A stretch of 64,000 nucleotides of DNA from Rhodococcus sp. Leaf278 (lineage in GTDB: Bacteria; Actinomycetota; Actinomycetes; Mycobacteriales; Mycobacteriaceae). Within the stretch, counting starts at the first letter, position 1, and the number at the start of each line of letters is the position of its first letter. Positions 9,826-58,275 of this stretch are shown here, one piece after another. The notes under the pieces are model-generated. The model searched no databases and was not told the origin of the DNA. It saw only the letters and a list, made by a program, of their open reading frames with translations. Position numbers and translations under genes: made by a program. The stretch lies in assembly GCF_001426085.1 (NCBI RefSeq), contig NZ_LMRR01000010.1, forward strand, positions 1-64,000. Direction: 5' to 3'.

Positions 9826-9925
9826 GAAAAGAGGACGACCCTCGCCAGGGGGGGAGGAGGCGAGGGTCGTCTGGTTCAGCCCCGGGGGGTCGGGCTGAAC
9901 ACCGCCCGGAATGAACCGGGCTCAC
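9826..9925 (-). ncRNA. 6C small RNA
   Basis: Read on the minus strand, two stable hairpins carry C-rich loops. The first has a nine-pair stem (GTTCAGCCC / GGGCTGAAC, 9892-9900 with 9874-9882) closing a loop with six consecutive C. The second has a 13-pair stem (9859-9871 with 9834-9846) closing a loop with seven consecutive C, followed by CTCTTTTCT, a terminator-like tail. Two hairpins each with at least six loop C residues define the actinobacterial 6C RNA. The position between the ssd (Rv3660c) and HAD (Rv3661) homologues is also that of the mycobacterial 6C/B11 RNA. A further small GCCCGG/CCGGGC hairpin lies at the 5' end. Exact ends are estimated. Confidence 0.92.
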
Positions 9926-10045: not shown

Positions 10046-10891
10046 ATGGTGACAAACGTGACCCAGAGCGCGAACATCGACGACGCCCCCGCCGGCCGAC
10101 GCCCAGCGCGCGTCGCGGCATTCTTCGACCTCGACAAAACGATCATCGCGAAGTCCAGCACGCTGGCGTTCAGCCGGCCGTTCTTCGATCAAGGTCTGAT
10201 CAATCGGCGTGCAGTGCTCAAGAGCAGCTACGCGCAATTCCTGTTCCTGCTTTCCGGGGCCGATCACGACCAGATGGAGCGCATGCGCGCCCACATCGCG
10301 AGCATGACCGCCGGTTGGGACGTCGAGCAGGTCCGCGCTGTCGTCGCGGAAACGTTGCACAATATCGTCGACCCCCTCGTGTTCGCCGAAGCCGCAGACC
10401 TCATCGCAGACCACAGGCTCCGAGGACACGACGTCGTGATCGTCTCGGCATCCGGCGACGAGATCGTCCACCCCATCGCCGAGATGCTGGGCGCCGACCA
10501 CAGCATGGCCACGACGATGGTGACCGTGGACGGCAAGTACATCGGCGAGGTCGACTTCTACTGCTACGGCGAGGGCAAGGTCGACGCCATGAACTCCCTG
10601 GCAGCGCAACATGATTACGACCTGGCTTCGAGCTACGCGTACTCGGATTCGATCACCGACGTACCGATGCTCCGCGCGGTCGGGCACCCGACGGCCGTCA
10701 ACCCCGATCGCGCACTGCGCAAGGAAGCTGCCTCCAACGGATGGCCGATTCTCACGTTCTCCAACCCGATCTCGTTGCGATCGCGAATTCAGACACCGTC
10801 CGGAAAGACCGTAGCCGTCAGTGCCGCAGCAAGTTTCAGCGCACTTGCCGCAGGTGTGGTCACCTACGGACTGCTCCGAAGAAAACGATGA
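10046..10891 (+). CDS. HAD-IB family phosphatase (SerB-like), Rv3661 homologue
   Basis: A 281-residue HAD-superfamily hydrolase of subfamily IB. The catalytic aspartates are in AAFFDLDKTII; motif II is VIVSASGDEIV; motif IV is YAYSDSITDVPML; GEGKVDAM carries the motif III lysine. A C-terminal hydrophobic segment (AAASFSALAAGVVTYGLL) followed by basic residues suggests membrane attachment. The family includes phosphoserine phosphatase-like enzymes; the true substrate is unknown. The ATG at 10046 gives the length of mycobacterial homologues (about 287); the frame is open to 9911 but that part overlaps the 6C promoter. It is divergent from the tad operon. Confidence 0.85.
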   Translation: MVTNVTQSANIDDAPAGRRPARVAAFFDLDKTIIAKSSTLAFSRPFFDQGLINRRAVLKSSYAQFLFLLSGADHDQMERMRAHIASMTAGWDVEQVRAVVAETLHNIVDPLVFAEAADLIADHRLRGHDVVIVSASGDEIVHPIAEMLGADHSMATTMVTVDGKYIGEVDFYCYGEGKVDAMNSLAAQHDYDLASSYAYSDSITDVPMLRAVGHPTAVNPDRALRKEAASNGWPILTFSNPISLRSRIQTPSGKTVAVSAAASFSALAAGVVTYGLLRRKR

Positions 10892-10902: not shown

Positions 10903-10931
10903 TTGATGTGAGGCGCGTCACGGGGTACAAA
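10903..10931 (+). promoter_or_regulatory. Promoter of the Ms1-like RNA
   Basis: TTGATG (10903-10908) and TACAAA (10926-10931) are separated by 17 bases, a good vegetative promoter just after the HAD stop. The start would be near 10938. No protein gene follows it; a strong terminator ends the transcript about 300 bases later. Confidence 0.7.
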
Positions 10932-10937
10932 TGACGT

Positions 10938-11243
10938 ACGGAAGAACGCAAGGCCAAGAACGAATCGGAAGAGAAGATTCGCTCTCCCGACCGGGATTCC
11001 CAGCACGGACACCGGCACCCACGCGGAGCTTGCCACCTAATGGCAGAAGCGCTGTGGGCCTGCGAAATTCGCCAAGGATCAGCAAGAACCCTGCACCGGT
11101 TGCAGGGATGACCTCATCATTGTCGAATTCTCGCCGAGGCCACGTGGTAGTCCATCACAGCCCACCTGTGCACGCTTGGTAACCAGGCGCTCCGTGCTAA
11201 CGGGCGGCGACGTCGACGCAAGTCGGCATCGCCGCCCTTTTAT
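10938..11243 (+). ncRNA. Ms1/MTS2823-like RNA (RNA polymerase-binding small RNA)
   Basis: A roughly 305-base transcript unit bounded by its own promoter and a strong intrinsic terminator, with no convincing coding frame. It lies between the homologues of Rv3661 and Rv3662c, where mycobacteria encode MTS2823/Ms1. That abundant RNA of about 300 bases binds core RNA polymerase in stationary phase and takes the place of 6S RNA. Length, strand and locus all match. Internal complementarity includes CCCTGCACC with GGTTGCAGGG (about 11090-11107). The open frame 10931-11182 inside it has no ribosome binding site and looks accidental. The call rests on position and boundaries, not a sequence model. Confidence 0.82.
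11202..11241 (+). terminator. Intrinsic terminator of the Ms1-like RNA
   Basis: GGGCGGCGA pairs with TCGCCGCCC (nine pairs). Inside, CGAC-GCAA-GTCG forms a tetraloop hairpin, and TTTTAT follows directly. It is a classic U-tract terminator on the plus strand, just before the convergent gene ending at 11251. Confidence 0.88.
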
Positions 11244-11250
11244 GTGCTCA

Positions 11251-11997
11251 CTACTGAGCAGCTTCGGCAATCGAAGTCGCTTCTGCTGCACCGGCTTCGA
11301 ACGCTCCGCAGCACAAGATGACCCAACTTCCGACGCCGGTCGCGGTGCCCTCGGCGAAGCCTGTCGCGCCGTCTCGGTAGGCATTCGCTCGACGCATCCA
11401 ACTCACCTCGGGCACGCCGAGGTTGTGCGGGTCGAAACCCGACGACGCAGCCACCAGCCTCGATGCAGCGCGCGCAACGATGCCGTCGGCAGATCCGAAA
11501 GCTTTGAGCGTCAACAGTTCACCGTGCACCACCGCCGCAATCACCGGGGCGGGTGCCGAAGTTCCGCCGGTCACCAACTGAGCGAGCAGATCGAGTCGCT
11601 CACCCACTCCCGCATCGCCGCGGGGACGGCCGAGGGCGGAGGCGTCGTCGACGAGGTCTGCCGCGGCCAACAAGTGCAGACGAGCCAGGGTCTGCAACGG
11701 GGCACGCTTCCACGTCGACAGCGTGTTCTGCAGAGCGTCACCGTCCAGAGCGGCGGCGACCCTCAGCGCACCCGCGAGAACCGGGTCACCTTCCTCGCCT
11801 TCGCGAGGGAAATCCATGGATCCGCCCTCCAGCGTCGAGGACGAGCGAGCTGCACGCACGGCGGCCTCGGCTGCGTTGGCCGGCCAGCCACGACGATTGG
11901 ACTTGTGTCGATGCACTGCGCCGAGGGCGTCGCGCGCACGTTCGGCGGAATCGACAACTCCGGGCAATTCCAACAGCGGGGCGAGGGGGTCCGTCAC
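11251..11997 (-). CDS. Conserved actinobacterial protein, Rv3662c homologue
   Basis: A 248-residue, alanine-rich, mostly helical protein beginning MTDPLAPLLELPGVVDSAERARDAL from a GTG codon. No catalytic motif or signal peptide is obvious. It contains HRHKSNRRGWPANAAEAAVRAARSSSTLEG and GELLTLKAFGSADGIVARAASRL, with a small hydrophobic C-terminal part. It matches by position and size Rv3662c, a conserved protein sometimes labelled oxidoreductase without support. It lies 30 bases after dppD and reads in the same direction, so it may be the tail of the dpp operon. Function unknown. Confidence 0.75.
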   Translation of the reverse strand: MTDPLAPLLELPGVVDSAERARDALGAVHRHKSNRRGWPANAAEAAVRAARSSSTLEGGSMDFPREGEEGDPVLAGALRVAAALDGDALQNTLSTWKRAPLQTLARLHLLAAADLVDDASALGRPRGDAGVGERLDLLAQLVTGGTSAPAPVIAAVVHGELLTLKAFGSADGIVARAASRLVAASSGFDPHNLGVPEVSWMRRANAYRDGATGFAEGTATGVGSWVILCCGAFEAGAAEATSIAEAAQ

Positions 11998-26810: not shown

Positions 26811-27485
26811 GTGGACGACGTCCTGGCACGGGCCGGCATCTTCCAAGGAGTCGAACCCTCTGCGGTTGCGGCGCTGACGAAGCAGCTGCAGCCTGTCGAT
26901 TTCCCCCGCGGACACGTCGTGTTCAACGAGGGTGAGCCCGGAGACCGGCTCTACATCATCGTTTCCGGCAAGATCAAGCTCGGACGACGCTCCCCCGACG
27001 GCCGCGAAAACCTGCTGACGATCATGGGACCGTCGGACATGTTCGGCGAGCTCTCCATCTTCGATCCCGGCCCCCGTACGTCCTCGGCCACCACGGTCAC
27101 CGAGGTCCGCGCGGTCAGCATGGATCGCGCTGCCCTCAAGGACTGGATCGACCAGCGCCCCGAGATCGCCGAGCAGCTGCTGCGCGTGCTGGCTCGACGT
27201 CTGCGCCGCACCAACAACAACCTGGCCGACCTCATCTTCACCGACGTCCCCGGACGTGTCGCGAAGGCGCTGCTGCAGCTCGCGCAGCGCTTCGGAACGC
27301 AGGAAGCGGGGTCGCTTCGCGTCACCCACGACCTGACGCAGGAAGAGATCGCCCAGCTCGTCGGTGCCTCTCGCGAGACCGTCAACAAGGCACTCGCCGA
27401 CTTCGCACACCGCGGATGGTTGCGCCTCGAGGGCAAGTCCGTGCTGATCTCGGACTCCGAGCGTCTGGCTCGCCGAGCTCGCTAG
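26811..27485 (+). CDS. crp: cAMP receptor protein Crp (CRP/FNR family)
   Basis: A 224-residue global regulator, exactly the length of Rv3676. The cyclic-nucleotide domain shows [22 protein letters not shown] and [18 protein letters not shown] (phosphate-binding Glu/Arg). The long dimer helix follows, and the C-terminal winged helix is [30 protein letters not shown], whose Arg-Glu recognition residues predict TGTGA-N6-TCACA sites. I chose GTG at 26811 because AAAGGAG lies five bases before it. The 268-base gap upstream holds the palindrome TTCGAC-cga-GTCGAA (26645-26659). Candidate targets in the window are acs and whiB4. Confidence 0.95.
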
Positions 27486-58158: not shown

Positions 58159-58275
58159 CCGGCCACCTTCCTCCTGGTTGTGATTGGGCCCATACTATGT
58201 GCTGGTCGGCTCCCGCCGTCACCCCACACTCGGATCGTCCGGCACGTTCCTGCCGGTGGAGGGATCTATTTCGTC

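Follow-up and report, generated by a model that had tools for sequence, protein, structure and literature searches.

A CRP-type palindrome in the promoter of a Rhodococcus Ms1 RNA gene

The window analysed here, a stretch of 64,000 nucleotides from Rhodococcus sp. Leaf278 (NZ_LMRR01000010.1, positions 1 to 64,000), contains what is very probably (probability roughly 0.9) the single Ms1 RNA gene of this genome, with its own sigma-A-type promoter, from which it is presumably transcribed (Table 1). RNAs of this kind are already known, and what is added here is a CRP-type site in the Ms1 promoter. Ms1 has been reported to bind core RNA polymerase without sigma-A in M. smegmatis (PMC4191392) and in S. 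coelicolor (PMC9130861), and in stationary-phase M. smegmatis it is described as the predominant RNA on RNA polymerase, with more than 60% of the polymerase-bound RNA reads (PMC11077062). From the M. smegmatis and S. coelicolor RNAs, we infer both transcription and RNA polymerase binding for the Rhodococcus RNA. By homology, the folded RNA would bind the RNA polymerase core, without the primary sigma factor, when growth stops; it would store RNA polymerase and affect its amount.

Table 1. Features of the Ms1 locus and the candidate regulator gene, in window coordinates.
Feature	Position	Strand	Remarks
6C RNA	9830-9904	-	RF01066, 73.8 bits; between ssd (TIGR03815) and the HAD gene
HAD-IB hydrolase, upstream neighbour	10046-10891	+	TIGR01490, 220.9 bits
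-35 element TTGATG	10903-10908	+	read directly; usually TTG[A/C]TG across genus and family
CRP/GlxR-type palindrome TGTGAGGCGCGTCACG	10907-10922	+	centre -23.5, in the -35/-10 spacer; one mismatch to TGTGA-N6-TCACA
-10 element TACAAA	10926-10931	+	17-base spacer; in relatives TA, mostly C and A, then AA
Ms1 RNA	10938-11241	+	RF02566 match; predicted start A10938; end within the terminator U-run
5' hairpin, purine loop GGAAGAGAA	10961-10981	+	Rfam helix 4; 91.9% of cells paired
Central hairpin	11002-11198	+	closing stem 11002-11008 with 11192-11198; next stem 11019-11029 with 11170-11179
Apical hairpin CCCUGCA...UGCAGGG	11089-11107	+	RNAalifold helix 11; two pairs changed on both sides
Extra small hairpin	11144-11155	+	RNAalifold helix 12; absent from the Rfam structure
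Terminator hairpin, GCAA loop and U-run	11202-11241	+	97.9% of cells paired, 37 sequences
Downstream convergent gene	11251-11997	-	no Pfam or NCBIfam match
CRP relative, candidate regulator	26811-27485	+	224 aa; PDB 3h3u, E 4.6e-134

The Ms1 covariance model, RF02566, aligned over its full length (model positions 1-304 of 304) with window positions 10938-11247 on the plus strand, scoring 140.7 bits with an E value of 3.1e-37 (cmscan). This locus is the sole match in the 5.7-Mb genome of the strain, the RF02566 scan finding no second copy there, and none of 14 control genomes matched. From 10938 to 11241, the RNA measures 304 bases. Five other Rfam families gave hits within the stretch at E values of 0.46 to 5.3, far under their own cut-offs, and were taken as chance. 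Beyond the convergent gene that follows Ms1 lies a dipeptide-type ABC transporter gene, also convergent; ssd, on the far side of 6C, presumably belongs to the mycobacterial gene order at the Ms1 locus. The closest named match to the HAD protein is from Rhodococcus sp. IEGM 1381 (98%, in a list that may omit the window's own record), which we take to be a relative within an R. fascians-like clade. The gene sits downstream of a HAD-IB gene and is separated from 6C by one gene, which is the published context of Ms1 (PMC9130861, PMC6582537). Together with size and strand, the covariance match, the upstream HAD-IB gene and the nearby 6C bear out the initial annotation, which had assigned the stretch to the Ms1/MTS2823 locus from its sequence. 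We call the gene an Ms1 homologue because published use of the name Ms1 includes Rhodococcus (PMC4191392).

The promoter and terminator were compared across 37 sequences of the genus, the window and 36 others. The -35 element reads TTGATG, TTGCTG or TTGAAG in this set, the -10 element is of the TANNAA type, and the RNA start ACGG is kept throughout, with A10938 as the predicted start base. The terminator hairpin proper (11202-11237) is GC-rich and is followed by TTTTAT. An automatic promoter and terminator scan returned no element on the plus strand of the stretch; it missed both because its rules accept only a -10 element whose sixth base is T and a stem free of interruptions, and its result was set aside because the comparison among relatives supports promoter and terminator alike. 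The initial annotation had also proposed a promoter after the HAD gene and a terminator with a tetraloop, framing a transcript of about 305 bases. Both elements lie where it placed them and are conserved in the 37 genus sequences, and the sequence evidence points to a unit of about 300 nt with a sigma-A-like promoter, an A start and an intrinsic terminator.

The RNA resembles M. smegmatis Ms1 (PMC4191392) in having an A start, a length of about 304 nt up to the terminator, a HAD neighbour and a sigma-A-like promoter. It agrees with the Rfam consensus in the ACGGA at its start and in the greater part of the fold, and differs from M. smegmatis Ms1 (RF02566) in a rewritten apical region, in the extra hairpin and in a score under the Rfam cut-off. 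The Ms1 of R. erythropolis, which appears as a prominent stationary-phase band by gel (PMC9130861), comes from Rhodococcus in the broad sense, as does the window, though from another species. Streptomyces coelicolor scr3559/Ms1 belongs to the published synteny class and binds core polymerase (PMC9130861). In the related genus Corynebacterium, the CoRP RNA of C. glutamicum is an abundant RNA polymerase-associated RNA; unlike Ms1, it is about 500 nt long, binds both core and holoenzyme, and is reported to have close homologues only in Corynebacterium (PMC11077062).

The score of 140.7 bits lies below the curated Rfam cut-off of 162 bits, which is a curators' rule and not a biological trait; under that rule the gene does not rank as a listed RF02566 member, and for this reason a default Rfam scan of the window does not list Ms1; it lists only 6C, a tRNA and msiK. 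The msiK RNA motif lies at window positions 58214-58271 (+; RF01747, 55.9 bits). At an E value of 0.001, RF02566 matches all 37 genomes of the genus (best matches 94.3-145.6 bits), none of which reaches the cut-off. Across the family, under strict filters, 337 of 401 genomes match and 95 reach it; 64 are without a match, and 15 of the 20 listed among these come from g3, a genus with small genomes. A class-wide draw, filtered as strictly, gave matches in 27 of 296 genomes, 25 of them from the same family, and the two outside it were weak (36.6 and 29.6 bits). RF02566 thus hardly extends past the family; a synteny-based survey reported Ms1 in 824 species and 146 genera (PMC9130861). Default annotation therefore under-reports Ms1: the cut-off removes all 37 of the genus genomes, and 242 of the 337 family genomes that match.

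Over aligned columns, the window RNA is 71.8-79.9% identical to seven Ms1 RNAs of Nocardia, Rhodococcus, Prescottella and Antrihabitans, and 62.8-70.1% identical to six mycobacterial or Mycobacterium-like ones, among which M. smegmatis itself was not identified; the values for one Williamsia and one Tsukamurella Ms1 are 61.6% and 63.5%. The initial annotation had held that primary sequence conservation is low outside mycobacteria. These values show that it is not very low. A Rhodococcus member, which the initial annotation had held to be informative for defining the family, is not new, since Ms1 relatives in rhodococci had been reported in PMC3207917, Rhodococcus is listed in PMC4191392, and a rhodococcal Ms1 appears in PMC9130861.

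The stretch from 10937 to 11243 has a predicted folding energy of -132.1 kcal/mol, compared with a shuffle mean of -104.5 kcal/mol (z -5.65; none of 100 shuffles as good). Two structures were scored on an alignment of the 37 distinct genus sequences, the window included, against covariation shuffles that do not keep relatedness. In the RNAalifold structure, which was built from the same alignment on which it was scored and is favoured by this, 98.7% of cells are paired, compared with 34-43% when partners were slid. Both partners changed in fifteen of its pairs, where shuffles averaged 7.8 such pairs (0 of 500 as high); further pair types did not exceed the shuffles (35 vs 33.2; 118 of 500). 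The Rfam structure, transferred from the window's cmscan alignment (94 of 96 pairs), is paired in 86.1% of cells vs 31-41% with partners slid, and 97 cells changed on both sides vs 38.2 in shuffles. Shuffles had as many pairs changed on both sides as this structure (16.0 and 16) and more further pair types (50.6, against its 43).

A comparison of the fold with that of Ms1, suggested as a check when the stretch was first annotated, found most of the Rfam consensus fold kept. The closing stem, the next stem, the upper stem, the apical hairpin and the terminator are well kept (90-98% of cells), helix 11 of the Rfam structure is intermediate (78.4%), and its helices 1, 6 and 12 are poorly kept (59-68%). 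In the RNAalifold structure, the closing stem of the central hairpin is paired in 100% of cells, with two pairs changed on both sides; in the Rfam structure, the next stem is paired in 98.3%. The fold described for Ms1 is a long hairpin with a central bubble, accompanied by two short hairpins close to the ends; in the Rfam structure, the flanks of a candidate for this bubble, helices 5 and 7, have 89.8% and 98.3% of their cells paired, and helix 6 between them has 68.1%. Of the four pairs in the extra hairpin, two have both partners changed, one in 18 and the other in 17 of the 37 sequences. In the 5' hairpin, one pair changed from C-G to U-A in 13 of the 37; its loop is identical in all 37 save one base in a single sequence (L031), and GGCCAAG is invariant. 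The near-invariant CUCUCCC (10952-10958) pairs with GGCCAAG (10967-10973) in the Rfam structure or with GGAAGAG (10982-10988) in the RNAalifold structure, one pairing excluding the other. With little informative variation at hand, these two modelled pairings are a possible switch. One genus member (L014, 1501-1796, minus strand) is without the apical hairpin, 22 alignment columns being deleted, and the apical hairpin of Ms1 may, judging from this deletion, be dispensable.

At least 19 of the genus and family genomes carry more than one match to RF02566, and 15 of these 19 hold between them 19 short copies of 246-260 nt, scoring 44.8-107 bits (loci L180-L196, L094 and L097). A long Ms1 is also present in 13 of the 15; G289, which is 74% complete, and G046 show short ones only. 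For the most part, the short copies retain the ACGGA start, the GGAAGAGAAG loop (L190 and L191 excepted) and the core arms, with much of the upper hairpin missing. Second matches in G018, G019, G151 and G181 (27.6-32.5 bits) were not counted as Ms1; the three that were examined, those in G018, G151 and G181, look like little beyond a hairpin and have no Ms1 sequence-profile match. Searched with one short copy, a set of 72,556 plasmid records returned eight, all from Rhodococcus, of which two span 80% or more of the query; the best matches were on R. pseudokoreensis NZ_CP070614.1, Rhodococcus sp. JS3073 NZ_CP113952.1, R. oxybenzonivorans NZ_CP021355.1 and R. opacus NZ_CP093381.1. With the window Ms1 as query, the plasmid search returned four records, including the 2.66-Mb Nocardia farcinica NZ_LN868939.1. 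On another of the four, the Tsukamurella tyrosinosolvens plasmid NZ_LR134469.1 (153.6 kb), positions 64385-64554 correspond to the first half of the window Ms1 (76.7%, 47% of the query). A phage collection searched with one short copy gave no match. Extra Ms1 copies are already known and are only extended here: a second Ms1 gene has been reported in M. nebraskense, M. celatum, R. jostii RHA1 and Smaragdicoccus, and on a Rhodococcus-associated plasmid (PMC9569102).

Within the spacer of the Ms1 promoter, we found a palindrome of the form TGTGA-N6-TCAC[G/A], which occupies a fixed promoter place in relatives, mostly starting at -31 or -32. At most two mismatches in its ten arm bases occur in 34 of the 37 genus promoters; 200 mononucleotide shuffles gave 0.3 on average and never more than 2. 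A position table was drawn up from 116 of 122 promoters (37 genus and 85 further loci), with short copies left out. Each base of the right arm TCAC is kept at 82-97%; of the six bases between the arms, five are kept at 40-62% and the sixth at 86%. The exact pattern TGTGAN6TCACR occurs once in the 64-kb window, where 0.22 occurrences are expected and 16 of 100 shuffles had at least one. Genome-wide, it is found at 14 distinct places, or 22 strand-wise matches, compared with 10 for the reversed pattern.

The spread of the site was read from a set of loci located by an RNA profile (157 of 160 loci), without use of the promoter in the search. The predicted start base set by the profile is about 8 bases off for a few loci (L107, L191, L094 and L097), and the 42-base stretch that was read still spans the spacer in these. 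Fifty-five of 80 named loci carry the site with at most two mismatches, these 80 being the top-ranked of 579 in HAD protein similarity and, as related sequences, not independent. It is kept in Nocardia (24/24), Williamsia (4/4), Tsukamurella (3/3) and Mycolicibacter (8/8, each with exactly two mismatches), as well as in 12 of 16 Rhodococcus sensu lato, counted with Prescottella and Antrihabitans; the members with more than two mismatches are R. aetherivorans, R. sp. HNM0569, Prescottella equi and R. spongiicola. Among named Mycobacterium, it is kept in 4 of 25 and degenerate in 21, and M. shimoidei retains both palindrome arms. In genus g29, taken as Mycobacterium from the scores, 28 of 31 have the site, as do 13 of 15 first copies in g23, g19 and g2. 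Among the short copies, 17 of 19 are without it, and the two that have it are both in G046.

A candidate regulator is encoded in the window itself. The CRP relative differs from 3h3u at about 20 of 224 residues, counted by eye, and a 29-residue helix-turn-helix stretch is identical; we take 3h3u to be the CRP of M. tuberculosis and the residues of this stretch to be those that read DNA. The cNMP-binding domain matches four places in the genome, of which this gene scores highest. That cAMP-CRP (of the GlxR type) binds the spacer palindrome and controls Ms1 is a tentative proposal drawn from these sequences, to which we give somewhat less than an even chance. We presume ncRv13660c to be the mycobacterial counterpart of 6C. 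CRP sites have been described upstream of ncRv13660c and two other sRNAs (PMC4117774). For Ms1 itself, a review citing Sikova 2019 states that the -491/+9 region contributes to its expression (PMC8628891), and no link between CRP and Ms1 was found in the open-access text searched.

Two other identities for the stretch were considered. Ms1 and 6S RNA both bind polymerase and have in common an open-promoter-like fold, and a 6S RNA would bind the sigma-A holoenzyme, unlike Ms1, which binds the core (PMC4191392); core binding is also what was found for S. coelicolor Ms1 (PMC9130861). A search with the 6S model RF00013 returned nothing from the genome or, at E values up to 10, from the stretch, which RF02566 matches at 3e-37; this identity, very improbable to us, was rejected. 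Still less probable, to the point of being almost negligible, is a protein-coding gene in the frame 10931-11182. Its 83 codons from an ATG are open in the window and in nine other genomes, and 10 of the 37 genus genomes have a frame of 75 codons or more; the ATG, which 25 of the 37 possess, lies 7 bases before the predicted start base of the transcript, indels in the Ms1 alignment do not come in threes, and neither Pfam nor NCBIfam gave a match. The frame was rejected, in agreement with the earlier view that no credible coding frame exists here.

A more serious alternative accepts the Ms1 gene and denies the CRP site: the palindrome would be part of an extended sigma-A promoter or the site of another regulator, a reading whose chance we put just short of even. 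Because some bases of the left arm also belong to the -35 element, the arm may owe part of its conservation to the promoter, and most named Mycobacterium have the promoter without the palindrome. A study of CRP in M. tuberculosis by ChIP-seq names other sRNAs, but not Rv3661, Rv3662 or MTS2823, in its main text (PMC4117774), and LexA binding is cited for the MTS2823 locus in PMC4191392. Against this, the right arm is highly conserved though it lies outside both hexamers, and the arms and their spacing equal the E. coli CRP consensus quoted in PMC4117774, where the M. tuberculosis motif is said to resemble it. In the named Mycobacterium without the site, moreover, TCTAG or a similar sequence stands in place of the right arm, and the left arm has changed as well, in most at one or two bases.

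If the palindrome is indeed a CRP site, cAMP-CRP would, most simply, sit on it during growth, and repression would be expected because a protein centred at -23.5 would block RNA polymerase; as growth ends, CRP would leave the site, and the polymerase-storing RNA would be turned on. Direct CRP/GlxR control, which we entertain at rather under even odds, would make the site an old one, common to Rhodococcus, Nocardia, Williamsia, Tsukamurella and many mycobacteria, which a large clade of Mycobacterium would since have lost. On the same reading, and with the same reserve, short Ms1 copies, some of them on plasmids, may mostly have escaped CRP control. Published levels may fit site loss loosely: MTS2823 is reported to be very abundant already in growing M. 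tuberculosis and to rise ten-fold (PMC3207917), and M. smegmatis Ms1 to rise about 130-fold (PMC4191392). If CRP control is real, loss of the site would leave Ms1 high during growth, and the conserved CRP-type site in the Ms1 promoter opens this to a direct and cheap test.
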